Shown here piece by piece: positions 17,977-53,512 of a stretch of 64,000 bases of DNA; the first letter of the stretch is position 1; the number at the start of each line of letters is the position of its first letter. Under the pieces are notes generated by a model. The model ran no database searches and was not told the DNA's origin. It saw only the letters and a program-made list of their open reading frames with translations. This stretch comes from Schizochytrium sp. TIO01. Lineage: Eukaryota > Sar > Bigyra > Thraustochytrida > Thraustochytriidae. A program made the translations under genes and the position numbers. The stretch covers positions 1,577,501 to 1,641,500 of the forward strand of contig SMSO01000004.1 of NCBI GenBank assembly GCA_004764695.1, read 5' to 3'.

Positions 17977-20900
17977 TCATTTGATTGTTTTTGCAGTAGT
18001 TGATGACACAGGCATCCCGATACATATAGGCGCTGCACCCACCAAGAATGGTAGCTTGCACGCTGCACGAGCGTCTTGAACAGCTTCAGGCAGAGATCGT
18101 TTCTTCCCCATCCATGCTTCCAGCATAGACAAGGTAAATCTATCAATGTCCTTATCCGTCACATCCCAAAGATTGGCAACAACCGCGAGACTACCAGCAA
18201 GCATGTATGCAAGAACTACACCAGCAGGCTCGAAAATTCCTTGCGAGCGTAGTTTTCCACTGCTACAGCCCATGAGCAATGTAGTTGCACAGGCATTAAG
18301 CTGAGCTAGCTGTTCCCTTGACAAAAGCTCTTCGCCACTTCCATGACCACAGTATAAGAATACGGGCGCCTCAGATAGTGCCCGCTTCAGAAGAGCAGAT
18401 CCTTCACTTGGAGTTTTCAGCCGGCCACAAGTTCCCTTCCAACCTAATCCTTTCGTAACACTGTCTAAAAACGGTTGCATCGCCTTGGCAGTGGAGTTCA
18501 AATCCCCGCGAGGATCAATCATATACTCTGCGCCCCGAAGACTAATCTTTCGGCCGATACTAGACAGCCTTTCTGCAATAAACGCAAATGAGGGCATGCG
18601 GCTAACACAGCGAGTATGAATACACGGCATAGCCTCAAACGGAATACCTTGCAGCATTTCATCTAGAACAAGAATGAGTGACCCTTGAACTTTGACTATC
18701 TCGTTGGATGCCACAGTAGTCTTGCTTCCAACTTGCTCTTTTGGAAGACCTTCTTGTTGGCCACTCTCGCATCCGCTATCACTCTCACCGTCACTTTCCA
18801 TGGCATCCATTTCTTCTTCATACGCCTCTAGACGCGCTATGAGCTCCTTTTTAAGCCCGGAGGTTCTCAGATTCCTTTCGGCTAAAGCCGCTCGCAACTC
18901 AACAACCTTCATTTCATTTGGATTCTTATTGAGCTTAACACGTTGCTGAGAAGACGACTTAACTAGCTCATCCTGAGAAGAACATCCCGAGGATGAACGA
19001 GAAGACGCATCTACAACTTCTTCTTCGTCTAATAACTCATTATCATATGAACCTGTAAGGCGATTACCTGCTTGGCGAACACATTCTACTAAGTTCAAGT
19101 GATCCCTGGTCTTTAAGCCCAGTGGTTTAGAAAGGAGCACCTCAACAGCATGTTCGAGAGTATCTGATACAGCATTATGCATGCCAGCACTCACTGCCAA
19201 AGTTAAGACATTGAAGATTTCCATTTCAGCAGATGTTACATCTGATTTCTTGAGACCCAAACCTTTGAAGGCAGCTGCTGCCTCGGCATCGACCTCTTTT
19301 GTGTCGATGCCAAGCGCACTTGCAGTAGGCGCTAGAAGAGTAACAGCTGCGGGTCCAAGCCAAGCAGTCTCCACATTTGAGAGCAAATCTTGAAGCTCCT
19401 TGTCAAGACGTTGGCGGTCATCCCACCATTGTCGCTTCCGTGTACGATCCCAGCCTGCAGTTGAGTCTGCAGTTGTACCTCTGGTAGTCTGCTCGGCGGC
19501 TTCCACCAGAGCACGCATTTTTTTAGCCAAGTCCTCTTCGTGTTGCTGCAGAGGTAGAATGAGTGTCAAGGGGTTTCTTGAGCGGGTCAAACGAGATACA
19601 CAAAGAAGCTCAAGCTCATCTAGTGCCGTCACAGAGCATACTGCCATATCGTCGGGAAGATCTTTTGAACAGATCTGTTTAAGATGAGCACCAGCATCAA
19701 TGACGTTGTCCCAAGGCGAATGCAATACATGACAGGGTTTGTCAGTCCAAAGACGGGTTCTCTCGAGGGAGAGGGCCAAACCAAAAGAGGCATGCATGAG
19801 GGCAGCAACCTGCCAGTCTGCACTTGCTACAGCATTGCTTGCACGAGTTTTTGTCATGGCTACAGAAAGCCCACGGAAAAGTGCGCGTCCAGTTTCAGGA
19901 CTTGCGTCGACACGCTGGGCACTATACAGTGCATCTTGCAAAACTGTAAGACCCTGCGACCATTTATTTTTAGCTAAGTAGGCTTGACCCAAGGCAATGT
20001 TAGAACGGCAGACCTCACGTTCAAGTGTTGGGTTTCCTTCACCGATTTCGGCTGCCTGCGTGAGCCACTTCGTCGGGTCTTTTCCACGTAAAAGCGCAAG
20101 TCTTGCTTGTAGACCAAGAATTTGAATTTTAGCTTCTTCCGCAAATACAGAGCAACGACTACGATGTTTCTGACGAGCTGCACGTTTTGACAAAGATGCC
20201 TTTGCGCGCGCTGCAAGCTCTGTTTCATCAATATCAAGACCACCAAGAGTTGCGATCGCCACTTCATCTTGGTCCTCAGCATGTTGGCTTGTTTCAAGTT
20301 GGTCAACAAAGGCCCGCCAGGCATCCTCTGCTTCACCTACAACTTCCGCTGCGGCGTCGATATCATGACGAGCAAGTGCAACGGAAGCGCGGCACATAAG
20401 AAGTTGAAGTCCAACTTTGCCGCTCTGTTCTTTTTTCAAGGAACCCAACAAGGCCTCGGCGTCATCCGGCTTGCCACACATAAGAGCAATACGACCTTTC
20501 AACATCTGAAAACGATTCATCAATGCATCCGAACCAACGCGCTCAGCAAGCGCATGACCGCGTTCAACATAGTAGCGAGCTGTTCGAGGATCACCACGTG
20601 AAACATAGACCTCACAAAGCAGTTCAAGACAGTCAACGACGTCATTGACATGCTTCCAATTTACTCCTGTAACTGCCAAAGGGCCAGCAGGGGTTTCCTG
20701 ACATGCAGCCCGTAATTTCAAAGCGTTGAGAGCTGTGTTAAGTACGACTGCAGAGTCCGTTGTGCTAGCAAATGACAAGGAAGCAAGTAGAAATGCGCAG
20801 GTGGCGTATTCATCACTTTGAGCTTCTGGATCCAATGTATTCATGACATCCGTAACGCGAGTTTCCAACGTGCATACAAACTCTCCCAATCCTCCAGAGT

Positions 20901-23712
20901 GAGTTGATCTCGCAGAATTTACCTCGGCTCTCTCATCTAGACTTTCAATGTCGTCAGCAAGAGAAGGAGGCTCATCTTCCTGGCATTGGTTCGCGTGATC
21001 TTGCTGTTGGTGCTGATTAAGAAATTCTAGCTTGTAAAACTTCGCAGCCACCACCGCCGCGAGGGTTTCCCCAAGTCTGTCACTCTGCTCATAAAGAAGT
21101 CTTGCTAATAGAGCTACACCCAATTTTGATTCCTTATGCGCAGCAATTTGTACAAGACGTTCAGGGTCAGCAGCACGTGCAGCTCGAATAAAGATGGCGC
21201 GCGCGCGGAAGCTTGCCTCGTGAAGACCGATTACTTCACACCACTCGCCTGCAAAACCAATATCTTGCAGGGAGCAATAGTCAAATTCACCGCTGCCTTG
21301 CATACTCCACTGATCAACTGCAGCACAAATCCGTTCACCTTGGCCTTCTAGGGCCTGTTCACATGTGCCCAGCCAAAAGTTGATAGAAGTACTTGCTGAT
21401 TGGTCGTCTTGTACATCTTGCATTGCACGATCACACAATTCAGTAGCCTCAATCAAGCGCTCTTTACGCTCTTCTTCGCTTGCACCTACATCCATGCCAA
21501 TGCTTCGAATTATTAGAGAGCGAGCGTGTTCGATATCGATCATTGCACTCTGGGATATATCCTTACATCGTTCCTGGACATGCTCTAGGAGGGCATTTCC
21601 AAGATTTAAGCAGCCAAGGGACATATAAGCATCAAGCTGTAAACGAATAAGTAGACGCATCCAGGCATCAGCTGATTCGCCATAGACGGTGGTGTCAAGC
21701 AACGTAGACACACAAATGATCTCCTCACCTTGGTTTGAAACAAGTTCTTCAGTACATTTGCAAAACCCCGTCACATCTGGAACCTCATCTTTCGAGATTT
21801 GGTCAGCAATCATACAAGCAAATGACTTACGTGACTCGTGAAGAAGTCCTGCACGCTGTTGACAGACAGCTAAAACATTGTACCTTTCAGCAAGTGAAAC
21901 CTGTGAGACAGCTGCTTCATCTGCATATTCGGTTGACTTTTGCAGAAACGGGACAGCATCAGAATAATCACCCGCGTTGAAGAGTCTGGCACCAACATTG
22001 TACGCGGCATTTGCGAGTGTTCGATAAAGAGACTCATCCAGCTCCGCAATTTCACACATTGCCCCAAGATGCTTTATAGCATTATCCATCCCGTTGCTGC
22101 TTCCTGATTCGCGATCCATCAAAAGGCGGTGACAGGCAATACGAGGTTTCAACAGGCCTTGTGGAGAAACACCAGCTGCAACTTTAAGAAAGGAAACCAA
22201 GACGCTTTGAAGTTGGGCGTTTTTCGTCTTTGCACAGGTTTGCGTGAGATTGACTAATTCTTTCTCGAGGCGGTGCAAAAAGTGCTTGAATGTCAGAGCC
22301 GTGGCATCCTCAGCTGCACATGGACGAACACATGTAGTTAAAGCAGCACAAAGGTCGGGAAATGCAGAAGAGGCAGCTACGTCCTCACTGTGAAGACTTT
22401 CCAATAAGTGTTTGATACATTGCGAAGGCGCTTTTTGTTTAGTCGTAAGGGTCCATTCGATCATTGCCATTAGCAGAGTTATAATGATTTCTGCGCGAAC
22501 ACAGCAGGGGTCAGGTACGTGTTCGAGCCATCTTGCGTACATGTCAAGGGCGCGCTCAACATCGTTCAATTGAAAACAAAGCTTCCGATAAAATTGTATA
22601 TTGCTGATCGATGGATCCTCGGTGCTGATGAGCTCTGCCGTGAATCCTTCGAAGCTGTCGAAGACGTCCAGAATTTCCAGTGCAACTGCTGCGTTTGTCT
22701 TGGAGTCAGGTGTGGGCGACGACTTAGCATATCGATGACACGCAGTAATGAGTTTTTCCGTAATGACAATATCTGAAGCCTTTGCACAGTCTCGCGGAGT
22801 AGAAAAGCACATTCGTAGGTTTTGTAGTGCTTCCACACGCAGACTAAAAGTCATTTCGAAGTTTCGCTTTGCTTCTTGCGCAGCGGCGCCATGGTGATAA
22901 AAAAGCGAAAATTGTGCCTTAGCGAAAGCTACGGATTTATTGGCATCGTGTTTCCCAAGCTCCTGAAGCCAGAAACCTAAATTTGCCCTTGATGCCTTTA
23001 AAGACTCACGGGAAAGTCCCTGTTCAACGAGAGATCGAACACAATTGTAAACAGAGAATGTGATAATACCACAGGCCTTCACCCACAAATCGTCCTCCTC
23101 GTCAATATTTTGGGATGGCCGTAAAGGTTTATAGCACAAAGGTGAATCTGCGTCATCAGGGAATGTCACATAGTCAAGATCTGCAAATGATTTAAACAGC
23201 AGATTAGAGGCCTCAACTGCTGTCTCAAAGCACTTTGCCTCCGCGCATACCCCAACAAGTTTCTGCACCAAGCTTTCCGGAGCCAGCGGATGTTTGAAGG
23301 TAACCTCATCTCTGATTGCCAGCAACATCCGCAAAGCTCTCAGTGCAACTGTCGCGTGAGGGAGGTCTTCTCCTCGACAACTATCGTTTCCAAAGGATGC
23401 TTTCGAGCTGCTCTGTTCTCCCGAGATCGCCTTACAGCAGTTCTGGGCCACCACAGCGAGCAGTGCCCCAAGCTTTGGAGCCTTTGCAACCGCCTGGGCG
23501 CCTTCACCAGCACCAAAGGCCTCCTCTGCCTCTCCAAGGCACTCGTCGAACTCTAACTGCAGCGCTTTTCCATCATTGAAGGACTGTGCAAGCTCTGCAA
23601 TCTTTCCTGCGCTCCACTGTCGTTGATCTCCATGAGCTCCGGCGCTCTTTGAAGGTCCTCCTCCTGCTTGTCGCCCAACACGACCACGGTTCGGGGCCCG
23701 GTTCTCGCTCAT
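17977..23712 (-). CDS. ESP1: Separase (peptidase C50) with a SAP motif
   Basis: Separase is the cysteine protease that cleaves the cohesin kleisin subunit at anaphase. The 1911-residue ORF, comparable to the roughly 2100-residue animal enzymes, starts at an ATG and has a long helical-repeat N-terminal part (to about 1500). The catalytic domain is C-terminal: LYCGHGSGEE places the catalytic His at residue 1790, and LLMGCSSGKL places the catalytic Cys at 1816, with the usual 26-residue spacing. RGAEYMIDPRGDLNSTAKAM and VANLWDVTDKDIDRF are also family signatures. Between the two parts is an acidic, Ser-rich linker. It holds a stretch at about residues 1597-1630 (nt 18825-18925) that fits the SAP DNA-binding motif (MKVVELRAALAERNL, then SGLKKELIARL). 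No intron is needed. A securin gene is not seen here. Confidence 0.93.
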   Translation of the reverse strand: MSENRAPNRGRVGRQAGGGPSKSAGAHGDQRQWSAGKIAELAQSFNDGKALQLEFDECLGEAEEAFGAGEGAQAVAKAPKLGALLAVVAQNCCKAISGEQSSSKASFGNDSCRGEDLPHATVALRALRMLLAIRDEVTFKHPLAPESLVQKLVGVCAEAKCFETAVEASNLLFKSFADLDYVTFPDDADSPLCYKPLRPSQNIDEEDDLWVKACGIITFSVYNCVRSLVEQGLSRESLKASRANLGFWLQELGKHDANKSVAFAKAQFSLFYHHGAAAQEAKRNFEMTFSLRVEALQNLRMCFSTPRDCAKASDIVITEKLITACHRYAKSSPTPDSKTNAAVALEILDVFDSFEGFTAELISTEDPSISNIQFYRKLCFQLNDVERALDMYARWLEHVPDPCCVRAEIIITLLMAMIEWTLTTKQKAPSQCIKHLLESLHSEDVAASSAFPDLCAALTTCVRPCAAEDATALTFKHFLHRLEKELVNLTQTCAKTKNAQLQSVLVSFLKVAAGVSPQGLLKPRIACHRLLMDRESGSSNGMDNAIKHLGAMCEIAELDESLYRTLANAAYNVGARLFNAGDYSDAVPFLQKSTEYADEAAVSQVSLAERYNVLAVCQQRAGLLHESRKSFACMIADQISKDEVPDVTGFCKCTEELVSNQGEEIICVSTLLDTTVYGESADAWMRLLIRLQLDAYMSLGCLNLGNALLEHVQERCKDISQSAMIDIEHARSLIIRSIGMDVGASEEERKERLIEATELCDRAMQDVQDDQSASTSINFWLGTCEQALEGQGERICAAVDQWSMQGSGEFDYCSLQDIGFAGEWCEVIGLHEASFRARAIFIRAARAADPERLVQIAAHKESKLGVALLARLLYEQSDRLGETLAAVVAAKFYKLEFLNQHQQQDHANQCQEDEPPSLADDIESLDERAEVNSARSTHSGGLGEFVCTLETRVTDVMNTLDPEAQSDEYATCAFLLASLSFASTTDSAVVLNTALNALKLRAACQETPAGPLAVTGVNWKHVNDVVDCLELLCEVYVSRGDPRTARYYVERGHALAERVGSDALMNRFQMLKGRIALMCGKPDDAEALLGSLKKEQSGKVGLQLLMCRASVALARHDIDAAAEVVGEAEDAWRAFVDQLETSQHAEDQDEVAIATLGGLDIDETELAARAKASLSKRAARQKHRSRCSVFAEEAKIQILGLQARLALLRGKDPTKWLTQAAEIGEGNPTLEREVCRSNIALGQAYLAKNKWSQGLTVLQDALYSAQRVDASPETGRALFRGLSVAMTKTRASNAVASADWQVAALMHASFGLALSLERTRLWTDKPCHVLHSPWDNVIDAGAHLKQICSKDLPDDMAVCSVTALDELELLCVSRLTRSRNPLTLILPLQQHEEDLAKKMRALVEAAEQTTRGTTADSTAGWDRTRKRQWWDDRQRLDKELQDLLSNVETAWLGPAAVTLLAPTASALGIDTKEVDAEAAAAFKGLGLKKSDVTSAEMEIFNVLTLAVSAGMHNAVSDTLEHAVEVLLSKPLGLKTRDHLNLVECVRQAGNRLTGSYDNELLDEEEVVDASSRSSSGCSSQDELVKSSSQQRVKLNKNPNEMKVVELRAALAERNLRTSGLKKELIARLEAYEEEMDAMESDGESDSGCESGQQEGLPKEQVGSKTTVASNEIVKVQGSLILVLDEMLQGIPFEAMPCIHTRCVSRMPSFAFIAERLSSIGRKISLRGAEYMIDPRGDLNSTAKAMQPFLDSVTKGLGWKGTCGRLKTPSEGSALLKRALSEAPVFLYCGHGSGEELLSREQLAQLNACATTLLMGCSSGKLRSQGIFEPAGVVLAYMLAGSLAVVANLWDVTDKDIDRFTLSMLEAWMGKKRSLPEAVQDARAACKLPFLVGAAPICIGMPVSSTTAKTIK

Positions 23713-24223
23713 TGCGGCGTGTAACGTCCCTTAAAGGCAGCGTGCGAATCTACGTGTCCCGGCACGCGTGGCCGGGCCAGTGTCTCCGCGGAGCGAGATC
23801 TACTTGAGCGATTTCCCGATTTGATTAGCTTTTCTCACTCTACCTACTTTGTCAATTCAAATGATTTGATTTCTTCTTCGTTTTGCGGGTAGTTAGCTTT
23901 GATCAATTTTGAACTTCAAAACTGAGAGGCCTAGCGTTTATATTATCCCTATATAGGACTCGAGTTGAATTTTTATTTACTTAATTCTAATTTCAGAAAC
24001 TACTAGTACAAGACGTAGGTATTTACTATGTAGCTCGAGTTTTCAAAGTTCGAAATTGAAATGAATAACTGTTTCTTTTCTTTCTCACCACATGAGGATC
24101 ATATTAATCAAAATAATATTTTAGACTAAAAAACGAAAGTTTGTTTGGGTAGAATGAATGACACGGAATAAACGAAAGAATGAATGATTTTCTTAAGGTT
24201 TGACTCAGAAGAGCAACAGAATA
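23713..24223. other. Divergent upstream region of separase and a small gene
   Basis: A GC-rich stretch directly upstream of separase (about 23730-23810) passes into AT-rich sequence. No ORF or RNA gene can be supported. Confidence 0.55.
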
Positions 24224-28183: not shown

Positions 28184-30481
28184 CTTGCAATAATATGTCG
28201 ATTAGGGCTTGTGTCTTTCGTACCCAAATTTTCTATGTTCCCTCTCGACACTAACTTCGCTAAATAAAAATCGCCGGCTCTACACTAGCTCAAGGTTTTT
28301 AAAGCACAGTTCCACAGTGTAGACAAGATCCAATGTCTCTAAATTCGAGGTGTTGCTGGGAAGAGAATTCTAATTTTCAAAAGCTCACGACGATGTTCGC
28401 GTCAACGAGGTCCTGGATGCCCGCGCAATCTGTCGATCCGCTAGGTCCTGGCGCCGGCGCCTGCAGCGAGGCGAGCAGCCGCGGCCCGCCTCGCCCAGGG
28501 CGACCCGACTGATATAGCGACCGAACAACCGGTCCGAGGCGGCAGCTCTCCGCCACGGTTTAATCCGTACGGGATTTGTACGCTGTTGACTTAAGCCACC
28601 AAATGTTTGGAGATTTCGATCGCTCACTCACCCATTCTGTACTACTAATAGTCTTATTCATATCTTCTTGTTATTCATTAACAACTAACTAGAACATAGT
28701 CGCAACAGGTAGTAGTAAATGCATGACAAGTCCCTTCTGAAATCTAATATATTGGTACACAGGAAAAAACACGAATCATCTGGCACCAGACCGCTTTTGA
28801 ATACGTTAATAAGTTATGCTCAGCTTTTTGGTTAAAATCCAGGCTGTTTCTTATGGGACACATCCGAATTGAGCAGGGGAGATCCATGTTTTAGATATTT
28901 ACTTGCGGTTCAATCTTTGCGATGAAATGAATGAAGCAAAGTGCCAGTATTCGGACCATAGCTGAGATTACACGATATGCCTATTAATTTCTTTAAAGAA
29001 TACAACCTTAGTTTCCTTACCCTATCTTCTCCAAGATAGCCTCATAGCTCTCTTGAGGCATCAACGAGTTTGAGAGCAAAAATGGGTTTACGCTCTTTGT
29101 GATCCTTCTAAGCAATTAGGTGCAGATTGTAACAGGCATTCAGTGTTGTCTCTTCAAAGTCATCTGTAACAAAGTGTATATATCTTATAGAAAATCTTCC
29201 ACCTGTAGCAAGTAACCCTACAAAACAGTAAATTTTAGATGATGACCTGCAAGATGGAGTTGATTTCGATGACGCTAATCCTGGGCTAATTTCCGAGGAT
29301 TTTCGAACTTAGGCCCCTCCTTCCAGTTTTTAGATAATCATGTGTAAATATGTTGATAGAAGAAGAAGATGAAGTGGCAACACATTTCGGCTAACTTTGC
29401 TTACTCATTTATTACAGTCATAAAGAGTTTAAGCTTTATGACAACTTCGCGCCCACCTTTATCTCTTTTAAAGGAAAACGCAAAGACTTTTCCTTTTCGA
29501 TACCAGCGCCAATAAAATCTAGGAGTCTTAATATTGGATACAATGGTCTCTTACGTAAGTGATAATGACGCTGAGCAAATCTAAAAGGTGCATAAATAGA
29601 AAGCGTCCATTCACTATAAATCAGTGAATTAGGTGTTTAACGAAACCCATAGATCTGTGATCAGCATAAAGAATCTCCCAGAAATTGTTCGGTATCCTTT
29701 CCGACACATATTCAACAAACAGTCAGTAACAGCATACTCCACGGATGCTCGTGCATTCTCAAGTATCTCAATTCTGTGAATTCCTACTTGGGTGACCGGA
29801 ACATTTAATGAGTTCTTATGTCTAACGACTTTTGCTGTTTTTTTTAATGTCCTGCTCACTGGGACTGTACAAACATCATCAGAAATCCAGAGTCCCAGAT
29901 GCAATTTCACAATCTGTTTCGCTCTCGAAAGCTGATTCGACAAGGCAAGCATCGAAATTTGGTCTAAGGTCAATGTTTTAATGCGGTTGCTAAAGGCGAC
30001 TTGTTCTCTTTTTCTTTTCTTTTCCAATTTTAAGAAGGCTGAGAAAAGTTGATTTCGAATCAAGCATATTCCATTTTTCCCCTATTTTTTTCATCCAAAA
30101 AACGAAAAAAAAAAAAACAGTGTTTTTAAGCACATTATGGATCCAAATCCACATTTTGGCGCCACACGGAGGTGGGTTCGGGACTTTCGTTTGATTGTTC
30201 GCTTGTGTATGAGAGTTTACTCCTTTTGCAAGGGAATGGAGCACCGCTGAATGTGCAGAAAAGCCAACATTCTTTTAAGTTGAGGCGTCGTCGTCTGAAT
30301 CTCAGCGAACCAGGATTGTTTTAGCGCAATTCAAGCAAGCTGTTTCGGACAAGACGCGAAGTTTGCGGGCTACATTCAAGGGTGGCAGAAGCTCCCAAGC
30401 TTCTGACAGTGTGCCCCATAACAATCATCAAAATCCTTGGAGCGCAAACTAAAGAATCCCGTGGGTCAGAAGGCCACAACG
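28184..30481. other. 2.3 kb divergent intergenic region
   Basis: It holds a compact GC-rich patch (28385-28630, listed separately) and otherwise AT-rich sequence. A 144-codon minus-strand ORF (29629-30063) has coding-like composition but begins with TTG, lacks an early ATG and resembles no family I know, so I do not call it a gene. Confidence 0.5.
28385..28630. other. GC-rich, hairpin-prone island, possible structured RNA
   Basis: A patch much richer in GC than its surroundings, with palindromes (GGCGCCGGCGCC near 28450) and self-complementary pairs (GGCGAG/CTCGCC; GGCGG/CCGCC). I could not match it to SRP, RNase P, snRNA or tRNA signatures. It could equally be a promoter CpG-type island for the ABC transporter gene. 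Confidence 0.3.
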
Positions 30482-33400
30482 ATGGAACAACAGGCTTCGA
30501 CAGAAATAGCTACTATTGAAAAGCCGTCAAAAACGGCATCCAACTTGAGAAGGTCAACTAGGTTGACAAACCCGCTAAGATCATTTTCACCAGGAGAGGA
30601 GGGAGCCAGACGTCAGCCTGTCACCAGAGAGCTTTCCTCTAAACAATCTAGCTCCGATCAGCCTAGCTCCAAACGACCTATAGACGAACAGCCCGATAAT
30701 GTTAATCACAGAGGTAAACAAACTGGTCGTGATCAGACAGATGACAACAATTCAAACAACTTACAATCACAAGATAGACTGCCGGGTGGCACAGACCTTT
30801 CTAAAAACGTAGGAAGTGATATGAAGCCTAAGCGAGGCCGTGGTAGACCCCGCAAATATCCTTCACGCTATACGAACAAAAAACAAAATGACAACGCCTC
30901 TACGGAAAAGCAACTGGAAGATAAGAATCTCAGTGAGGGACAAAATTCGTTTGGAGAAGCCCAGAGCAAGACAATATTTGACAAACAAGCTGGTGTAACA
31001 GAGGAAGCAAACATGGATTCAACTGAACCGCTACGCGAAGGCGATTCTGCAAAAGTGCTCAATCTGCGGGGCCGTGCGGACTCTGCGGACGTAGAATTTG
31101 TGTCTGAGACGGGTAGCAGCCGTGCAAATTTCCACTCAAACCTCTCTGAGACAGATCAAACTAGTACCCAAGAGGGGAAATCTACGTCTGGGCCTTCTTC
31201 ACAGTCTAAGCACGGTGTTACCCGTGCCGGACAAGTTGCTATTGTTGACCAGACCCAATCTGCAACCAAGAAACCTCGTAGAGAGCTTTGTATTGAAAAC
31301 AATTGTGATCAAAACATGGAGATGCTCAGTAAATTTAATGACACAGGCGTGAGTGAAATCAGTGCTAAGAACAGTATCATTGATAGAAGCAAAGGCAAAG
31401 GCAGTGTTAATAGTTCTGATGCTAAAAAAGTCGTTTCTAAAAGCTCATCTTCTCCACATTCATCCCATTATCAAGATGACTTCGCTGCAGCTCTTCATGA
31501 GACGAGGTCGCCACATGAAATGAAATTTGGATCTCAAAGCATGGGAAAATCTTCAAAAATACCTAAAACAATGGCTTCTGCAAGGTATGCTAGGAATGGA
31601 AATCACAGAAATAAGGACGACGACAACCATGAAGATTCAAGCTCTGAATTGACCAGCGATGATGAACTTCAAAATCACCTAGAAGGGGTAGATACGACAG
31701 GATTCATTACACCAGCACTCGAACAAGTAATTGCAGACGTAATTATTGCTTTTGCAGACGCTGGCCTTCCGCTGACCAAAATGGAAATGCGTCGACTTGC
31801 AAAAGATATGCTTGATAGTTTATATGATCCAACAAACTCATTTTCAACACCGGATGGATGGTTTGAAGGCCTTCGGATGCGCCATCCAGGTATCTCTGAG
31901 CGAAAGCTTGGGCAGCGCACAAAGCAGCGCTTCTCGATCTCTAAAAGTGAAATCAGATACAATTGGTTTCGATTGCTGGAGTCAAAATTTGCTGAGGTAC
32001 ACGACCTAAATGCAAAATTAATTAAACAATACAGCTTAAAATGCACTTCAGCAGAGCTTGCACCGGGAAATATCTACAATCTTGAAGAGTCATGTTACAC
32101 ACATTTAAGGTTTCCTGGGTACAGTAATATCCCCAAAACCAAAGAAGAAACTATTGAAAAGGTGTCTAAAGTTTGGCCTTTAGTTACAATGTTTGCGGCA
32201 ATAGCAGCCGATGGGAGTTGCGTAGATCCATCTTTTGTAGTGAAGGCGTTGCGATCGTTGCCAGCTTCTGAGAGTTTGAGTCAATTTGGTAATTGTTCTA
32301 AATATGCCAATGCTGCTATTTTTCAATCTGAATCGGGCTGGACCGACTCGAACGTCTTTCGAGAATGGGTTAGACACTTTGCGCAGCATCTTAGCATGAA
32401 AAATGGGACCCTCGATTCAGGACGGCTGTGGACACTCCTTATTTTAGATGATCACCCATCACATCAAGATCATCTGGCATTTTCCATGCTTCGTGACGAA
32501 CGGGTTTGTGTCGTCTTCGCACCAGATGGAAACTCGGTTATGCCTCTTCCGCTAACCAGGGTCCTTTATGGGCCTGTATTTAAACAGTACCTCAAGAAGC
32601 TCCAGTATCTGAGTGACACTCGAAGCGATGCCCGAGAGATTAAAGACATAATTTCAATGGCGAGCGAAGCTTTCTTCGCGGGAGCTACTCCGGAAAATAT
32701 AAAATCTGGGTTTATAAGCTGTGGGGTTTGGCCTTTGGAAAAAAATATTGCGGATAGTAACGAGGGTGAACTAGATGCGCATCACCATTTGAGCTCCTAC
32801 TCTGAGCAATCGAGCTTCTGGGAAGCCATGGAAATAGCTGTTGATGTTGGATCTAGCGTTCGAAATGAAAATTCTACTATTGTGACTTTGGAGGAGGTTG
32901 AGCTAAGCAAAAAGGAATTTCATGTGTTAGCCTCTCTTTCGAACAAAGAGGACGCTTGGCTTTGCGATAAACTAGTTCTGTCACTTTCAAGACACGTTTG
33001 CAAAGGTTCTGAAGTCTTTGTTGTTGATCCTCAAATCACTGCTCTGCTTGGAAAACCGCAGTTTCAGGTAGAATGCATCACCAGGGCTGCCATACATTCA
33101 AACAATATTGACGCAAAAGGCCCGGTGTTAGACCGCGTACATGGTGGGCGGTTGTTTGCTCACAAATTTATTGCTTTTCCTGCTATTGTGCACAGCTCGC
33201 ATTGGGTTCTTTGTGTCGCACAATTCACTTTCGGAAACTCATGTCAACTATGGTATTTCGACTCTCTTGGTAACGAAATTGTTGAAGAAGTAACGAATGC
33301 ATGTAAAACCTATCTTGAAGTTAAGGCCCTCGAATTGGGTCACGAAAAAATAATCCCATGTATTGTTAGGGCACCTTGCACGAAGGTGTTGGAACGTCCA

Positions 33401-33586
33401 GTTCAGACGATACATGCCCAGTGTGGCGTTCATGTCATTCATGCATTGCATGCGTTGAGTAAAAACCTTCTGACGTGGAGATCCCAGATACAAAACCAGG
33501 TGCCGAACGATGTTTCGATTTTCCGTGGGTTTCTAGTTAGTCAACTTGTGCGATTGTTCGCCTCGAATTCGCACTTTTCTATTTAG
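30482..33586 (+). CDS. Domesticated pogo/CENP-B-like transposase fused to a Ulp1-like (C48) protease domain
   Basis: The first ATG (30482) gives 1034 residues; the frame opens at a TTG (30437). The N-terminal 380 residues are charged and disordered, with an AT-hook (KRGRGRPRKYPSRY, nt about 30830-30875). Nt 31690-32750 encode a pogo/Tigger-type unit: a CENP-B-like HTH region (DGWFEGLRMRHPGISERK) and a DDE_1-like core (NIYNLEESC; SGWTDSNVFREWVRHF; LLILDDHPSHQDH; LPLTRVLYGPVFKQYL). The usual first Asp is Glu, and the third acidic position (normally QPLD) is Thr, so transposition activity is unlikely. The C-terminal 220 residues fit a Ulp1/SENP cysteine protease. They contain SHWVL (His 907), WYFDSLG (Asp 927), Gln 975 and QCGVH (Cys 981), with the Gln-to-Cys distance of 6 seen in Ulp1. 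The protein could bind DNA and process SUMO or a related modifier; this is inference. Confidence 0.8.
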   Translation: MEQQASTEIATIEKPSKTASNLRRSTRLTNPLRSFSPGEEGARRQPVTRELSSKQSSSDQPSSKRPIDEQPDNVNHRGKQTGRDQTDDNNSNNLQSQDRLPGGTDLSKNVGSDMKPKRGRGRPRKYPSRYTNKKQNDNASTEKQLEDKNLSEGQNSFGEAQSKTIFDKQAGVTEEANMDSTEPLREGDSAKVLNLRGRADSADVEFVSETGSSRANFHSNLSETDQTSTQEGKSTSGPSSQSKHGVTRAGQVAIVDQTQSATKKPRRELCIENNCDQNMEMLSKFNDTGVSEISAKNSIIDRSKGKGSVNSSDAKKVVSKSSSSPHSSHYQDDFAAALHETRSPHEMKFGSQSMGKSSKIPKTMASARYARNGNHRNKDDDNHEDSSSELTSDDELQNHLEGVDTTGFITPALEQVIADVIIAFADAGLPLTKMEMRRLAKDMLDSLYDPTNSFSTPDGWFEGLRMRHPGISERKLGQRTKQRFSISKSEIRYNWFRLLESKFAEVHDLNAKLIKQYSLKCTSAELAPGNIYNLEESCYTHLRFPGYSNIPKTKEETIEKVSKVWPLVTMFAAIAADGSCVDPSFVVKALRSLPASESLSQFGNCSKYANAAIFQSESGWTDSNVFREWVRHFAQHLSMKNGTLDSGRLWTLLILDDHPSHQDHLAFSMLRDERVCVVFAPDGNSVMPLPLTRVLYGPVFKQYLKKLQYLSDTRSDAREIKDIISMASEAFFAGATPENIKSGFISCGVWPLEKNIADSNEGELDAHHHLSSYSEQSSFWEAMEIAVDVGSSVRNENSTIVTLEEVELSKKEFHVLASLSNKEDAWLCDKLVLSLSRHVCKGSEVFVVDPQITALLGKPQFQVECITRAAIHSNNIDAKGPVLDRVHGGRLFAHKFIAFPAIVHSSHWVLCVAQFTFGNSCQLWYFDSLGNEIVEEVTNACKTYLEVKALELGHEKIIPCIVRAPCTKVLERPVQTIHAQCGVHVIHALHALSKNLLTWRSQIQNQVPNDVSIFRGFLVSQLVRLFASNSHFSI

Positions 33587-33987
33587 ATATACTTTTTACT
33601 TTCACATACTGAAAGTAAAGCCATACACAGGTTTAATTTAAATAACTATGTCTAATTTAAAAAATGTTGTCTGAATTTGAGCATTATGATTTCTTGGTGC
33701 ATGGGCTTATCTCTTTCTTACCTTTGGCATTGAACTAATCATAAAATTCTTATTTCTCTTTTTGCAATGACAATTGGGGTTGTTGCGTCTGTTTACATGG
33801 TGTACAGATGGCTGTAGGCCTGAAATCTGGTAAAGTTCTATTGAGACATATAAGATGTATGGTAACGAACAAGTTGACTCGGCAGTGATCCGATTTTACA
33901 TGCACAATGGGTAAATCAATTTGCTGCTATATGCGTACAACAGAATTATTTTAAAGGGCAATAGTTATAGCTCTAAATCATACTTGC
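33587..33987. other. Convergent intergenic region with a hairpin
   Basis: Between the transposase-protease gene and the EF-hand gene. It has a 10-bp hairpin at 33595-33619 just after the stop codon; the rest is AT-rich. Confidence 0.6.
33595..33619. repeat. 10-bp perfect inverted repeat, 5-base loop
   Basis: TTTACTTTCA (33595-33604), loop CATAC, TGAAAGTAAA (33610-33619). It sits 8 bases after the stop codon at 33586, where it could mark the mRNA 3' end. Alternatively it may be a relic of a transposon end. Both are inference. Confidence 0.7.
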
Positions 33988-34794
33988 TTAGGTATGGATT
34001 GAATATGCAGCATCAAGGAACTCCTCATACTGAAAGGTTGCATTGCCATTGTAGGCAGTATCCTTCTTCTTGAAGGCTTCAGTGAGCTTGTGAAGTTCGC
34101 AAAAGAGAGAAACAAACATGTCAAACCCGAGACCGCCAGCCTTGTCAGTACCGTAGATTTCGAAGAGGCGATGGAAAAACTTGTCTGAGAATTGATAGCC
34201 TGTCTGACGGATTGCATCGATTAGCTCACTCTTTCCAATGACACCAGAGTGGTCTGTATCGTGGGCCTCAAAGCATTGACGCCAGCTCTGGAGGTATCCC
34301 CACAAGCCCTCAAACTCTGTGCGATCCACGCTGCCATCGCGACTTGTATCATACAAGTTAATCAGCAAGCGGCAGGTCTTGAGACTAAAGTCCATCTTTC
34401 CACCCTGGCTGAGGCCAAACTGGAGCTCATCAGCAGTGACAGAGTTGCTTCCATCACGATCCATCGCTGAGAAAATCAGTCCTGCAGTAGGTTGCTGACC
34501 GGAGCGCAATTGGTTCTCAGCATGTATAGATGCTTGGCATTGCTGGCCCAATGTTTGTGCCATTGCCGGCGGGGGTGCACCAGGCTGGGGAGGTGGGGGG
34601 GGCATTGGAGCAGGGGGACCTCCGTGGTGATGGTGCCCATGGGAAGGAGGTCCCACCGGAGCTTGGATCTCAAGCTCCATGCCAGAGTAGACCCCAGCCG
34701 GGCAGGTTACTCGCATCTTTTGCCCACTCACATTCACGAGAAAGCTCTGGCCAGGGCCTACGCCGAGGGGAACAGTAACACGGTATCTCTGCAT
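33988..34794 (-). CDS. Penta-EF-hand calcium protein (ALG-2/peflin/sorcin type)
   Basis: The 268-residue protein has three parts. Residues 1-50 form a compact beta-like module (VTVPLGVGPGQSFLVNVSGQ, then VTCPAGVYSGMELEIQAPV). Then comes a Gly/Pro/His-rich linker (about 51-85), the hallmark of penta-EF-hand proteins. Finally, about residues 100-268 hold the EF-hands: DRDGSNSVTADELQ, DTSRDGSVDRTEF and DTDHSGVIGKSEL are clear calcium loops, followed by two degenerate hands. Family members bind Pro-rich partners and membranes on calcium binding, for example in ESCRT and ER-exit events. The N-terminal module is not part of animal members. ATG at 34794 is well placed. Confidence 0.88.
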   Translation of the reverse strand: MQRYRVTVPLGVGPGQSFLVNVSGQKMRVTCPAGVYSGMELEIQAPVGPPSHGHHHHGGPPAPMPPPPPQPGAPPPAMAQTLGQQCQASIHAENQLRSGQQPTAGLIFSAMDRDGSNSVTADELQFGLSQGGKMDFSLKTCRLLINLYDTSRDGSVDRTEFEGLWGYLQSWRQCFEAHDTDHSGVIGKSELIDAIRQTGYQFSDKFFHRLFEIYGTDKAGGLGFDMFVSLFCELHKLTEAFKKKDTAYNGNATFQYEEFLDAAYSIHT

Positions 34795-37248
34795 CTTAGT
34801 TGCTCCTTTCCCTCGTTTCCAGATATCTTACTTGCACAAGCTACCCTAGGCAGGCTCAATGTCACAAAGCCTGCACTCGCAAGACTCCTCAACAATCAGA
34901 TTTGGCTAAACTTGCCTCTTTTGGCAAAGATTTGTAGTAGGTCATGTCATCCCAAAAGTCAGCACATTCTATCTTTATCCGACTCTCTCTGCGCAACCCA
35001 TTTTATTTTCCTGGATCTTCGTACCTTCTGGAGTAGCGCAAAAAGGAACAGAGAACAGAGAACGGCTCAGATAATTTGAAAATTGGGACAGAGTTTGAAA
35101 TTATATTCGAAACTAAATTTGAAACGCAGAGCCGAGTGTCTTGAGGCCGAGGTGACACGAGCGAGAGTTTGTACACGCCAGCGTGCTAGGCTGACGAACC
35201 AACCTTACTTGAAGGCGTGAAGGCGTGTGGCTATTTGCTTGACGTGCATAGACTGCCGGGCCCGAAAGAAAGTGGCCATTGGAATTGGCCAACTTTGGAA
35301 GGGATTTGGACAGAGTTTGTGCTTGAAGACTATCTCTTTATCTATCGAAAGCGCACAAGAGACTTAAATTACAGCACAAAAATTAGCAACAGCTGTACAA
35401 AGGTCACCGTTGATTTTCTGCTTCAGTTAATCTGCAGGAAAACTAGCCGACTCTAGGTCTGTAAAAATCCTAACCTCTGAGCTGGGTAGTGCTTTCAAAT
35501 CCTTCACGAAACGTTCTGCCTGGAGATCCAGAACTACGAGAATACCTTTAAGCACTGCATTGGTACGGTCTGCCCCGGCACCCAGCTTTCCACAGCCCGT
35601 TTTGCAAGTTTCGTGACCCTGTGATAGTCGCCAGGTCGAAGTAACTGTCTAGCGTTGATTTCTGGCCTTCGCTGCATGAATGTCGGTACGGTAAATCTGG
35701 GAAATCGTTGCTGCCGTCGGATCCTTGAACCCTACGCCGCATATTGTTTTCTTCAGTACCTCATTCAATCTACTTCTTGACTTTCCACGACAGTCTGGAG
35801 GCCACCCAGACTGGGTTACTATTGATTGCAGCAAGACTGCCAAACACGACTTGGCAAGCTCCGCCAACTCCTCTGGGGAGGAGACCGACGTCTTGAAACA
35901 GTCGCTCAGTGAGATTAATAGCACTTGCCTTCTCTACCTCGTCTCAGTCTCTCTTAATTTTTTGCAGCGTTTCGTCGCTTGAAACTGTCTAACCCAGTAC
36001 GAAGCAGCTAAAGAAGGTTACTCTGTATTCGCGATTGCAGCTGGGCACTGTCGCAAAAACTGGCGTATCCCGTGGTGCTGACAGAACTACTATACCCATC
36101 CTGCACAAACCAATTGAAGGTTCAAGGTCTCATTTGGTGTTGGGACGAAGAAAAGTCGCGGGTTACCTACGGACTCATTCTCTGTCTATTGTAGGGTCTT
36201 ACCTCCAGCTTTGACGACGAGGGTTGCAGACGCTTGAGTTGCATCACTTCGTGAGACGGAGGCTTGGACTTTTATCGCTACGCGAATTGCTCATCGTTGT
36301 GTTCTGAGAGTCGCAAAACAGTATCCCCCACTGATCTATAGCAGCATCCAAAATCGTTCATTAGTGTCACCGCGCATTTCTCGGGCGAGTCACAAAGCGC
36401 ATCCTGCCAGTGCCAAAGTTCTTTGCGTCGCCTCGTCACCTAAAGAAGTTTACGATAGCTGCGACCTAACAGCCCCTACTTGACAAGATTTCAGAATTAA
36501 AACCAAACAAAAAAAAAACCACAATAACATTTGCAAAGGCTAAATACCTATTGTACTGGGATTGCGTAATTTACTAGTCTAGGTGCCTAAAGTACCAGTT
36601 ACCAACTGTATTCAATCTCTGCCAGCTGAGCGGTAGATTCTGTAAATAGCAAACCTGATCGCTCCAGCAGCAGCGACTTCTGGCCATACGCTATCACGCG
36701 CGAAGCGTTCTGCGGACTAGCACTCGTGGATTCCAATTTATTGGTAGCGTCAAGGCTTGCTCAGGCTTCAAATTGAACTTTTCCTCGCAGAAACGAATCC
36801 CTCTCCGCCAGTTTCATTGGGCCGCCATATTAAAAAAAAAAAAAACAGAAGAAAAAAGGAAAAAAACAAAACAAAAAAACATCTCTTTTAAAAATAAGTC
36901 GGCAGCAGGAACACACACCGAACACTGGTGTAGCTGCTCTTCAGTTTTTACGAGGCAGCCGGCACACTGGAGAGACATTGATATAAATCTCTTCAAGAGG
37001 TACTCCCTGGACCCCTACTTTTAAATCTCTTGTTGGGATTTTATCATTGTTTTTGCATCCACTGTTCTTCACGGGAACAGGTCTCTCTGTATCATCGTCC
37101 TCAGGGAATCTGAAAAAGCCTATCGAGACAACTCACGTGTGTCTCCCCTGGTGCCTTGGGAGGGAGAAAAAGGTTTTCTATTGAGCCCCAAAGAAATCCA
37201 TCTTTAAACTCATCAATTTACTTATCTTCGCGACTATATACTACGACG
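34795..37248. other. 2.4 kb gene-free interval with possible decayed coding sequence
   Basis: The centre (about 35460-36480) has a more balanced base composition than the AT-rich flanks and carries short overlapping ORFs broken by stops, mostly on the minus strand. It looks like a degraded gene or transposon, but no family is recognisable. Poly-A/oligo-A stretches occur at 36510-36518 and 36831-36880. Confidence 0.45.
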
Positions 37249-47955: not shown

Positions 47956-49484
47956 GGCGGCTCCACACGAAATAGCTTCAGGTCGACACAAACAACAACT
48001 ACAACCAAGCAAACAGACAGTCCATGCAAAACAAGTCAATATTTCCACCACCACTTGGCACCCAAGCCGCGTCTCCTCGGGCAATGCTCACGATACCTCT
48101 CTCCACGGCCCTCGTCAGTCGTAGTTAAGTCACTTCTTATTTTTTTACTTTCTTACGCTTTCGAAGTTATACTTCTATCTATTACCAGTACCAAGTATAG
48201 GTGCCTCTACAGGTAGCTAGGTTTTCTGCCATTCTTCGACATGGTATAACTGGGTCATGTACTACCAATTCAAATTACTACTAATAGTAGTAACTGTACC
48301 TACCTACCTTTAGAACTCTACTCTCTAAAAAGAATGCATGACAGCTCAATTTCTAGTCCGGTACAGAGTAACCTTGGTATGTCTACTGACTGCTTTTAGG
48401 TGCGAGAGAGGTGTTCTATGCTATCATGATTTCCTGCTGCAATCAAATGCCTAATTGAATATAAAAAGGACTGTCAGTGCTGCAGAGAAAAACGCACGAT
48501 ATGACTGTGCTACGAGAAAGGATCATAGTAATTATACACTATCTTACTTGAATGTAGATATCGAATACGTTCAATTCTCTCTACTTTCTCTATTCCTTTG
48601 GTGGCAACTATGTCAAAACTGTACAGATTAATCAGACTTGGAATTCCTGCGATGGAAAAATGCAAAAGAACTGAGAAAACGCATGTGTAAAACTACGCGT
48701 AAGCCTTGTCAGGCCTCAAGCTTTTGGCGGAAGCAGGCAAAAGCCAATTTAAAATCGTGCTGAGGACGTGGTCAATGAGGCTTCTATTTCTATGTACTGT
48801 GCACAAGTACGAGCATTGAATTGACTACCACGTTCATAATTATGCATATGAGAACCACATGTATGCCTTTTATAGGCAAAACTGTGCAGCCGGGTTGACG
48901 AAGCAGCTAGCTGCAAAGGGGGATGTGAAGGGCATCGAAAGAGCAACCCCTAAAATTATAAATAATGAGGGGTTAAGGAAATATGTTTCGCCTCATAGGG
49001 TGTCAATTAATTAAACTGACCGTGATACATATAATCTTTGGAAAATCAGTACAATCAAAATATGGTTTATCAACTCAAGGGATGAACAACGCTTTAAAGA
49101 GCCATAACTCGTGTAAAGTAAAAGAGACGAGGACATTAATGAAGAGAAAAACGAAGAGGAAAACGAAGAGAAATTGGAGACGAAGAGTTATGGTGCCTGG
49201 TGGCTCCTGATACATCATATGTTCGAAATGAACAGATACACGCTCCTGTAGTTCCATATCAGTGTATTTATGTGGAGAGCGCCATCCAAACAATTCTTTT
49301 AACCCTTTGAACTCAAGCATACGAACGCAGACAAAGTCTCAAGTACTTCAGATCAGACCTCAGCAAAACCAAAACATCGCCAAGTCCCGCCAAACACAGA
49401 AACAATCAACAAGAATCTCTGGCATTCTACTATAGAATCAGCAAGTCAAATTGTCCTTTATTTGTCTCCTTCGAAAAGCGAACC
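47956..49484. other. 1.5 kb divergent intergenic region
   Basis: It contains a TACCTACCTACC motif (48297-48310), related to that at 6.2, 6.8 and 61.9 kb, and AT-rich sequence. No gene can be supported. Confidence 0.6.
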
Positions 49485-50207
49485 ATGCATTTTTCAGTTG
49501 CTTTTGCTCTTTTACAGCTTCTCGCGCTTGCTATGACAAGCAATGCAGCAAGTTTACGAAGCAATGAGCAAGACGTTCAATCAGTCGAAAGTAAACCTAG
49601 TACAGAGTTCTCCACTATTGAACGCTCACTTACGCAGGCTGAGGCTATCACAGATACTTGCGAAGCCTTTGAGCTCATTGGAGATGGATTTTGTCGTGAG
49701 ACTGAAGCTGGCACTGGCACAGGCAAGTTCAACCTGTACAACAACATCTACTCTCAGGAGGACTGTGAAAAGCTCTGCCGCGACTACGAAGGCTGCACCG
49801 GATATGAATACGATGAGCGTGAACATCGCCATACTTGCGAAGTTCATCGTGGCAGCGTCGAAGGCTACGCAGCAAAGGATGGTGTCAAGTGCTACAAGCT
49901 CAAGAAGAACCCTTACCGTATCTACGCCAAGGGATACTGCCGTTGGAACTACAGTGACTCCGGAGCTCCTGTCCCACATAACAAGGAGGACATTGATGTG
50001 TTCTGCAACGATAAGCACCCTTGCACTCTGGCACATTGTGCTGCAGAGTGTGAATATCTTGATTGGTGCAAGCATTTTGAGTTCAAGCCGAAGGAGAACC
50101 CGTACTATACCGACATTGTAGGTCAATGCACTCACTTCAAGAAGGACGTCACAGCTTATAAGGCCTCCAAGTACGCCACCTGCTACGAAACTTGTTTATA
50201 TATTTAG
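49485..50207 (+). CDS. Secreted PAN/Apple-like protein, copy 1
   Basis: The 240-residue protein starts with a signal peptide (MHFSVAFALLQLLALAMTSNA). A short, variable Ser/Glu-rich spacer leads to two cysteine-rich PAN/Apple-like modules. The first has SQEDCEKLCRDYEGCTGYEYD, the second CTLAHCAAECEYLDWCKHFEF; both follow the PAN pattern C-x3-C-x5-C-x-(G/H). PAN modules bind proteins or carbohydrates outside the cell. It is the first of three tandem family members. From 49698 to 50195 it is almost identical to copy 2 (51484-51981, one base difference at 50132), while signal peptides, spacers and flanks differ. That points to recent gene conversion. The stop codon follows a short copy-specific tail (LYI). 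Confidence 0.8.
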   Translation: MHFSVAFALLQLLALAMTSNAASLRSNEQDVQSVESKPSTEFSTIERSLTQAEAITDTCEAFELIGDGFCRETEAGTGTGKFNLYNNIYSQEDCEKLCRDYEGCTGYEYDEREHRHTCEVHRGSVEGYAAKDGVKCYKLKKNPYRIYAKGYCRWNYSDSGAPVPHNKEDIDVFCNDKHPCTLAHCAAECEYLDWCKHFEFKPKENPYYTDIVGQCTHFKKDVTAYKASKYATCYETCLYI

Positions 50208-51264
50208 ATATAATCATTCTCACTAACCAGAGCTTTTAAATTTTAAGTGATTTATCATGAGCAGTCTTTCCCAAAACGCCATAAAACTATTTCCTACTTT
50301 GTTCTGTTTTGAAAAAAAGTTTAAAACTTTCGGTTTGTAATTTTCTACGGTGCTAAAATCTACAAGAGACGAGTCCCCCCCTCACACACATAAACAAAAT
50401 CATAAAGAACGTCACAATGTCAGCACTGGTTATAGTGCTGCTACATAGATCTAGGTAGATATTAGATTAATGAGTTGATGAGGTCTCGCAAATGTAATAT
50501 GTAATAATAGAAACGGAGAATTGCATATTATAACCTAATGGTTAATTAAGCTTATGACAACCCTACACAAGTCTTTTATTATATAAACCGGGTATAGTCC
50601 TCCTTCTACAGCGGTGTGAAGCCGGTGTGATTTAGAACTTGGGACATCCCAAGATACGAATCTCAGTATCTTTCTCTCTTCTTTGCAACAATAAGAACAA
50701 CAGAGTCCAACCAAGGAAGAAATAGACACCAGATGAAGAAATACGATTGAGACTGAAGAGAAGGAACAAATTCATCAATCTAGCAAAAATCATTTGCAAA
50801 GATTACGTTCTGACTGCAGCAGAAACATGAGCGAAGAGAAGGATTCGATTGGCCCTTTTAACAGTTTCTAAGGTGCATTTGTTAGAAATAAAAAAGAAGA
50901 CGATAAATTGGGTTTGAGAAAATGCGTATGAAGAGATGGAAAATTGTAACGAACAACGAAGAGACCAAATCAGCTCAAAGTTCATGACCTCGCTCTTTAA
51001 GGTGAAGGCAACAACACAAAGGAGTTAGGGAGTAAGCTAGTTTCTGTACAAGCAATCAAATCACTTGCAAATCATCGTGCGTATGAATCCAAACATGTCA
51101 TCGCGGTAATCTAGCCCAAAGCTTACCACAAGTACCCTTCTTGTGCAACCAGACCCGCAACTCTAGTCCAAGACAAACCCACAACTCAAAACATACCAAC
51201 AATATAGAGCCTATCCAGCCCTGACCTTCACAGCCAAAGACTGGAGTACTATCTTATCGACAAG
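50208..51264. other. Intergenic between PAN copies 1 and 2
   Basis: AT-rich, with no similarity by eye to the region upstream of copy 1, so the duplication is not a recent copy of the whole unit. No gene was found. Confidence 0.55.
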
Positions 51265-51987
51265 ATGTTTATGAAAGTTTCTCGCAAAATCGCACTGCTT
51301 ACGATCATGCAACTTCTTGCTCTCGCATTTGTGTGCAAAGCAACGAGTCTGCGCGCTACCAAGAGTGAAGGAGCTCTTGTTCCCGAGTCCACTTCCTCAA
51401 GCTCTCGCAAATTGACAAAGTACGAAGACCCGACCCCTGAAGAATGTGAGACTATCGAATTTGTAGGCAGTGGTTTCTGCCGCGAGACTGAAGCTGGCAC
51501 TGGCACAGGCAAGTTCAACCTGTACAACAACATCTACTCTCAGGAGGACTGTGAAAAGCTCTGCCGCGACTACGAAGGCTGCACCGGATATGAATACGAT
51601 GAGCGTGAACATCGCCATACTTGCGAAGTTCATCGTGGCAGCGTCGAAGGCTACGCAGCAAAGGATGGTGTCAAGTGCTACAAGCTCAAGAAGAACCCTT
51701 ACCGTATCTACGCCAAGGGATACTGCCGTTGGAACTACAGTGACTCCGGAGCTCCTGTCCCACATAACAAGGAGGACATTGATGTGTTCTGCAACGATAA
51801 GCACCCTTGCACTCTGGCACATTGTGCTGCAGAGTGTGAATATCTTGATTGGTGCAAGCATTTTGAGTTCAAGCCGAAGGAGAACCCGTACTATACCGAC
51901 ATTGTAGGTCAATGCACGCACTTCAAGAAGGACGTCACAGCTTATAAGGCCTCCAAGTACGCCACCTGCTACGAAACTTGTGTGTAA
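51265..51987 (+). CDS. Secreted PAN/Apple-like protein, copy 2
   Basis: The 240-residue protein has its own signal peptide (about MFMKVSRKIALLTIMQLLALAFVCKA) and its own spacer, followed by the same two PAN-like modules as copy 1. The mature part from RETEAGTG to CYETC is identical in protein sequence to copy 1 and differs by one synonymous base (51918). The proteins part again only in the last residue(s). Such near-perfect synonymous identity, next to unalignable 5' parts, is not expected from selection alone. It is probably secreted into the extracellular space or wall; its ligand is unknown. Confidence 0.8.
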   Translation: MFMKVSRKIALLTIMQLLALAFVCKATSLRATKSEGALVPESTSSSSRKLTKYEDPTPEECETIEFVGSGFCRETEAGTGTGKFNLYNNIYSQEDCEKLCRDYEGCTGYEYDEREHRHTCEVHRGSVEGYAAKDGVKCYKLKKNPYRIYAKGYCRWNYSDSGAPVPHNKEDIDVFCNDKHPCTLAHCAAECEYLDWCKHFEFKPKENPYYTDIVGQCTHFKKDVTAYKASKYATCYETCV

Positions 51988-53512
51988 TCAACCTCGAATT
52001 GAACCTCACACGAATAAAGAAGAAGAGCATTTCTCGTATTACAAAATTGTCATTAATTTTTTTCATTTCGATTTTTCAAAAACCTCATTGCATACAACAA
52101 AGGCAGAGGTTATACCTTATATATATGTTCTATCGATAGCAACTGACGAACAAGCGCCAGATTTGCTATGTGCTATCTGATGGTAAACCTGCAGAGTAAC
52201 TTTTGGGAAATTATTTTTAGACAAATCGTTCCATTGCACATAGCTCATATCTGACAATACGTAAATTGCAAGCGTCGCTTAAGATCCTAATCCTTCAATT
52301 TCCATCCTTAGCTGCAAAACATTTCTTCAAAACCTCCAATGCTTTGAGAAAATGATAGAGTTATCTAGCTAGTTATTAAGCAGGGGTGGGGGTGGGGGGC
52401 ATACGAGATCGCATATGCATTTTGATTTTTAGCTTTCCAAGCAAATTCCGGTCTTAAGATGTGGCGGTTTGTAAAAAGGCTGTAAATCCCTCAAAGTTCA
52501 TCACCATCATTACTAACAATAATAACAAAGTAGTGCCTACTCTTAGGAATTACCTCAAGGTTGTGCACCTCCGCCAACAATGCGAACCATAGAGGTCTGC
52601 CCCCTCCATTAGCTAGTTATTACTTCTCCTCCTCCTCCTCCTCCTCGCCAACAGCGTGGTTATCCATATTTATGCTAAGAGAGCTCCATGTACCAACCAC
52701 CCCATCTTTAGTTTTTTCATGGAGTGTTTGCTCATTTTCACGATCTCCTCCCACCAAGAGCTGACCATTATCATCATCACGCTAATACCTTACGAAATCA
52801 TCGTCATCATTCATCGTAGTCGTGACCTTCAAGTTTCCCTCTGCAGGGTCCCCCTCAAGTACCTTAAAAGACACCGTAGTAGTCCCAATGTAGCGATGAG
52901 TTAATAACCTTTGTTCGTTTAGAAACGCACTGGACCCGAAAAGCGTCCCAGCGAAATGCGCGGTGTCTCCGAACCTAGCGGGGAAGCTGCCTCGAAGGCG
53001 GTGGAAATTGGGGCTGCAGATGGCACCGAGAGCCTCCCTCAGGTCGTCCCCCATCTGTTGAAAGATCGATTGATGTATCAAGGGTACGAGCAGGCAGACG
53101 CGCAGTACCGAAGTCCTTGGATCTTTGGTCTCAGAACGGGCTTGACATCTTCGGTGTACTGTGGAGATGCAGCGTGCATGCTGGCTATGCATGATGGTGA
53201 TGATAATGATGGTGATGGTGATGATTCAGGTTGGGCGGAAGGCGTCTGTCGATAGATGGGATGCTGAAGTGGCAGCGCCCTATCTATCTTTGAGGATTTG
53301 CTTTCGTTTAGAATCTTGGTAGTGAGGCAGTCAGGTATTGTAAAGGAGATTTCTACTTTATGAGACGTCACGGGAGCTGCCTTACAGTTAGCAGGGGGAA
53401 CTTGCAATTGATACCAAGAAGCAAGCAAAACCTTAATCTCAGGCGGAAAAAGGGAAACTCCAAAGCGTGAAGGCTGAGACCAGTGATTACTTCAGTCCAC
53501 GGAAATTTAAGA
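51988..53512. other. Intergenic with repeats, between PAN copies 2 and 3
   Basis: It contains a CTC/CCT run (about 52625-52648) and a GATGGT-type repeat (53193-53226). A 99-codon ATG ORF (52956-53255, plus) and a 136-codon ORF on the other strand (52782-53192) overlap each other. I cannot support either as a gene, since the repeat supplies part of the open frame. Confidence 0.5.
53193..53226. repeat. GATGGT/GATGAT microsatellite
   Basis: Imperfect tandem GAT/GGT units. Confidence 0.8.

Follow-up and report, generated by a model that had tools for sequence, protein, structure and literature searches.

Within the window, the whole 64,000-nucleotide stretch of DNA analysed here, positions 30482-33586 of the forward strand form one uninterrupted, stop-free reading frame of 1034 codons, encoding a protein of 1034 aa. 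At the ORF's own base composition, the chance of an equally long open frame is ~5e-28. Its ATG lies in CACAACGATGG, and we take the surroundings of the ATG to be a favourable start context. The encoded protein comprises a low-complexity N-terminal tail, a pogo HTH-DDE body and a SENP-type C48 domain; a pogo-type body and an Ulp1/C48 domain are fused in one frame. The first-pass annotation had read an AT-hook, a pogo HTH/DDE region and a C48 protease in this ORF and had proposed profile searches as a check. In these searches DDE_1 and Peptidase_C48 both scored above their Pfam cut-offs, and the HTH and the AT-hook scored below theirs. The AT-hook-like motif, KRGRGRPRK, starts at residue 117 (30830-30862, forward strand, as are all features of this gene); the AT_hook profile matches residues 117-127 of the whole protein with 11.2 bits, under the cut-off of 17.4, and the RGRP core is evident on direct reading. 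SUMO-interacting motifs are no commoner in the N-terminal part than in shuffled sequences, and a search of the PDB with the whole protein or with the C48 part alone returned no matching sequence at E values up to 10.

The pogo catalytic region extends over residues ~525-760 (32054-32761), its ends being estimated around the DDE_1 match at residues 568-744, which covers positions 5-177 of the 177-position profile with 38.5 bits and an E value of 1.2e-9 for the whole protein (2.5e-10 on fragments). Upstream of it, searches with fragments located the CENP-B/pogo DNA-binding profile HTH_Tnp_Tc5 at residues 411-475 (31712-31906; profile positions 2-66 of 66), with 19.2 bits for a short fragment and 16.9 bits for a longer one, both below the cut-off of 22.2. 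Neither psq nor CENP-B_N was among the domains listed by Pfam for the whole protein or its fragments; pogo proteins with a single HTH have been described already (PMC7386202). Two pogo-like proteins, P0003 and P0004, likewise have DDE_1 above and HTH_Tnp_Tc5 below the cut-off. P0003 is 21% identical to the ORF product (BLASTP, E 4e-9 for that one comparison), and residues 400-800 align with a profile of P0003 and P0004 over 310 columns (E 8.6e-17), the HTH region lying inside the alignment. A scan of the genome with HTH_Tnp_Tc5 listed a single weak match, C6:824326-824493 (17.4 bits, E 0.27), which sits in a 655-aa open frame; the pogo-C48 gene itself was not listed, which indicates the limited power of such scans.

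The catalytic triad could be placed because the same motif pairings appear in the alignment with P0003 and in that with the P0003 and P0004 profile, another alignment, out of register at the first motif, having been left out. NYDET pairs with NLEES, LLGDN with LILDD and QPLD with LPLT, which puts the three positions at E535 (32084-32086), D656 (32447-32449, the Asp being kept) and T692 (32555-32557). The triad is therefore E535-D656-T692 rather than DDD, in agreement with the earlier reading that two of the three acidic catalytic positions are changed, although the first change, from D to E, retains an acid. On the other hand, the second and third positions are separated by 35 residues, the DD35 spacing that is the rule for the Passer and Fot/Fot-like families (PMC7386202). 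The altered triad suggests that DNA cutting by the pogo part has probably been lost. Such a loss need not be complete, since Metnase is said to cleave DNA with a DDN triad (PMC4036204), and a change of the third residue alone need not abolish all cutting. Changed triads in vertebrate pogo genes include DD34S, DD34N and DN35D (PMC7386202, Table 1).

The Ulp1/SENP-type C48 domain occupies residues ~825-1034 (32954-33583). Its score is modest: Peptidase_C48 matches residues 890-1006 of the whole protein with 23.2 bits (E 6.8e-5, cut-off 20.7) and reaches 27 bits on a fragment (E 4.8e-6). A WL-x-D motif at residue 826, ahead of the matched segment, suggests that the domain probably begins upstream of the Pfam match, and its start was estimated from this motif. 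Alignment with C48 proteins encoded elsewhere in this genome recovered the complete set of catalytic residues that had been proposed earlier, namely H907 (33200-33202), D927 (33260-33262), Q975 (33404-33406) and C981 (33422-33424). The residue preceding the catalytic Cys is Gln (QCG), where Asp (DCG) is usual; one other C48 protein of the genome has NCG. Among the 12 C48 domains compared, the nearest is that of the genome's strongest C48 match, a SENP-like protein, and not the C48 of a repeat family present in five copies. As to a possible substrate, a genome search with Rad60-SLD gave 24 rows, and seven short stretches were read. Several of these resemble ubiquitin, either by itself or in fusions; one of the seven, C32:394107-394274, reads as SUMO-like and contains one TAA within the match, perhaps the sign of an intron. 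This stretch suggests that a SUMO system probably exists in the organism. AlphaFold models were of poor quality, with a mean pLDDT of 37.6 for the HTH-DDE-C48 part (four sequences) and of 39.7 for C48 alone (one sequence), and neither support nor refute the proposed folds.

A counterpart from another data set of 3 contigs, P0002, is also 1034 aa long and has an identical junction between the two parts. It differs from the ORF product at six residues (114, 147, 193, 279, 356 and 364), none of which lies in the 635-residue domain part, residues 400-1034. Under an even spread, the probability that all six would fall within the first 399 residues is 0.0033. This pattern, seen at the protein level in one pair, cannot tell constrained domains apart from a rapidly changing tail. 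The Pfam annotation precomputed for P0002 lists DDE_1 alone, with no C48. P0002, P0003 and P0004 were the only relatives found in three protein searches, two of which scored the best 8000 candidates and may therefore have missed orthologs; within that scope, no ortholog other than the near-identical P0002 was found. The database search gave P0003 with an E value of 0.088; P0004 emerged solely with a profile that already contained P0003. The profile behind one protein search had its C48 row misplaced upstream of the core of that domain, and two alignments with misplaced C48 rows were left out of the analysis. Viral contigs, scanned four times, yielded no confirmed relative.

The mobility of the gene was assessed in a genome of 64.06 Mb in 37 contigs. 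Searches with the protein, with the DNA of 30482-33980 and with DDE_1 each returned the locus itself as the sole match; no second copy or fragment was found among the best candidates, the only ones scored, so that a diverged copy could have escaped. The two flanks, 28202-30481 and 33587-36500, were scanned against each other for 16-base inverted pairs, with a tolerance of up to 3 mismatches; 27 pairs were obtained, compared with 10 to 45 across 20 shuffles, and none of the 27 had TA on both sides. A separate listing contained 14 inverted pairs, of which four (I2, I3, I6 and I9) enclose the ORF with 70-80% complementarity; TA flanks on both sides were again absent from all four. The scan of the flanks was directed at TA as the flanking duplication, not at TAA or TAAA, and would overlook TIRs of lesser length or greater divergence. 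The hallmarks of a pogo transposon, TIRs with TA-type target duplication and multiple copies, thus did not appear in the searches run. The first-pass annotation had suggested a host protein and had named many near-identical, TIR-flanked copies as the sign of an active transposon. These were looked for, and one copy with no TA-flanked TIR was found. An active transposon was rejected on the grounds that these searches brought up neither another copy or fragment nor a terminal repeat flanked by TA. Within the limits of these searches, the locus has the features of a domesticated transposase: a single copy, no terminal repeats, an open frame and an altered triad.

It is the single copy, the lack of TIRs in the scans, the altered triad and the intact P0002 that favour a domesticated host gene over an active transposon. 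The balance of evidence leans, although not heavily, towards a domesticated single-copy pogo transposase that has been fused to a SENP-type protease and works as a DNA-addressed deconjugase; DNA binding, protease activity, substrate and benefit to the host are what we infer for it. Such a protein may have arisen when a pogo-type transposase with the DD35 spacing of Passer and Fot/Fot-like elements lost DNA cutting and a SENP/Ulp1-type cysteine protease was joined at its C-terminus, the long low-complexity N-terminal tail carrying the AT-hook-like motif. The AT-hook, the HTH and the dead DDE region would then direct the protein, perhaps in dimeric form, to particular sites on the DNA, where the C48 domain, with its H907, D927, Q975 and C981, would strip the proteins present of SUMO or a similar modifier. 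That the gene encodes a host SUMO/ubiquitin-like protease with a built-in DNA address, the non-cutting pogo body putting the SENP domain at chosen sequences, is a possibility that we put forward tentatively and at somewhat less than an even chance.

The main rival to the domesticated-gene reading is that the locus is a relic, the last immobile copy of a pogo transposon lineage with its own Ulp1 domain and no host function. In that lineage the C48 domain would have had a role in transposition, as others have proposed for the Ulp1 domains that different transposons carry. Ulp1 domains have indeed been reported in several transposon groups (PMC2836005, PMC3212892), and the C48 protein found in five copies that are identical over 3 kb shows that C48-bearing repeats exist in this genome. 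Yet the searches run found neither a second copy, nor a fragment, nor a TIR, and the C48 domain resembles the SENP-like protein more than it does the C48 of the repeat family. Moreover, although two of the three triad positions are altered, 1034 codons remain open both here and in P0002, and the differences between the two proteins spare the domain part. We regard a relic as rather unlikely. A second rival, a host gene valued for its protease alone, would make the protein a SENP paralogue that has acquired a pogo body for structure or dimerisation and not for targeting to DNA. It draws on the C48 residue set being complete while the HTH and AT-hook score under their cut-offs; against this, the HTH-DDE part aligns with the pogo-like proteins over the 310 columns given above, the HTH_Tnp_Tc5 of those proteins is itself below the cut-off, and the HTH-DDE part is identical between the ORF and P0002, which leaves this reading improbable. 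Two neighbouring genes or an assembly error mistaken for a single ORF might be suspected from so unusual a fusion, but we consider this very improbable in view of the one stop-free frame and of P0002, which comes from another data set and shares both the 1034-aa length and the junction.

The two halves of the gene each have precedents. The pogo half resembles the vertebrate CENPB, POGK and POGZ, domesticated host genes that retain an HTH_Tnp_Tc5 and DDE_1 body joined to a further domain, the additions being dimerisation, KRAB and zinc-finger domains (PMC7386202). None of the 12 genes in Table 1 of that paper has a protease, unlike the present, non-vertebrate gene with its C-terminal C48. The earlier remark that Ulp1 domains occur in Mutator-type elements was correct but too narrow, as they have also been reported in Ginger1 transposons (PMC2836005) and, beside the recombinase, in some oomycete Cryptons (PMC3212892). 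Ginger1, Mutator-like elements and the oomycete CryptonF and CryptonS thus resemble this gene in that a recombinase occurs together with a C48/Ulp1 domain or protein (PMC2836005, PMC3212892), but their recombinases are integrase-like, Mutator or tyrosine recombinases, whereas here the partner is a pogo DDE_1 with an altered triad, present in one copy. SENP/Ulp1 SUMO proteases share the His-Asp-Gln-Cys set and the WL-x-D start motif; the ORF differs from them by QCG in place of DCG and by its pogo body. SETMAR/Metnase joins a SET methyltransferase to mariner parts, its enzyme lying at the opposite end from that of the pogo-C48 protein. It is similar in that it is a host protein containing a transposase whose triad has been altered, to DDN, and differs in that it is said to keep DNA cleavage (PMC4036204), whereas the pogo-C48 protein is probably without cutting. 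Other transposons with Ulp1 domains are known, and so are domesticated pogo chimeras; the combination of the two is new in the literature searched, largely without subscription journals, where no pogo-Ulp1 pairing was found; the first-pass annotation had known of none either.

If the domesticated-gene reading is correct, DNA sequence would set SUMO removal within one polypeptide, and direct tests of the effects of local deSUMOylation on chromatin would become possible. An enzyme domain would also join KRAB, zinc-finger and dimerisation domains as partners of tamed pogo transposases (PMC7386202). If the gene is a relic instead, the range of transposons that carry an Ulp1 protease widens.

Several further observations were made in the course of this work. 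In the genome search, the DNA upstream of the gene (28400-30481) hit, apart from itself, 19 short stretches of contig C15; a 36-base stretch, 29295-29330, matches at ~90-94% a tandem array with a unit of ~101 bases within C15:1-9900 (L047). A link to a CENP-B-like satellite through this array was considered and dropped, as C15 (71.7 kb) reads as mitochondrial DNA, with one tRNA in the first 9.9 kb and Nad7-like and ribosomal-protein-like ORFs seen on reading the sequence, and 29295-29330 may be a short insert derived from mitochondrial DNA. The five-copy C48 repeat encodes a protein of ~1849 aa with DUF6729 and C48, found on contigs C33, C24 (two copies), C13 and C4 (L026), with six further partial matches, and is probably a recently active transposon family carrying an Ulp1 domain. 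Elsewhere in the window, a 1917-aa ORF on the reverse strand (17977-23730) ends in a region that, as read, resembles a separase-type protease. The neighbouring ORFs 49311-50207 and 51208-51987 share a long identical stretch, from ETEAGTGTGKFNLYNN to SKYATCYETC, of a Cys-rich, secreted-looking protein and are apparently a recent duplication, with a diverged relative at 53471-54361.
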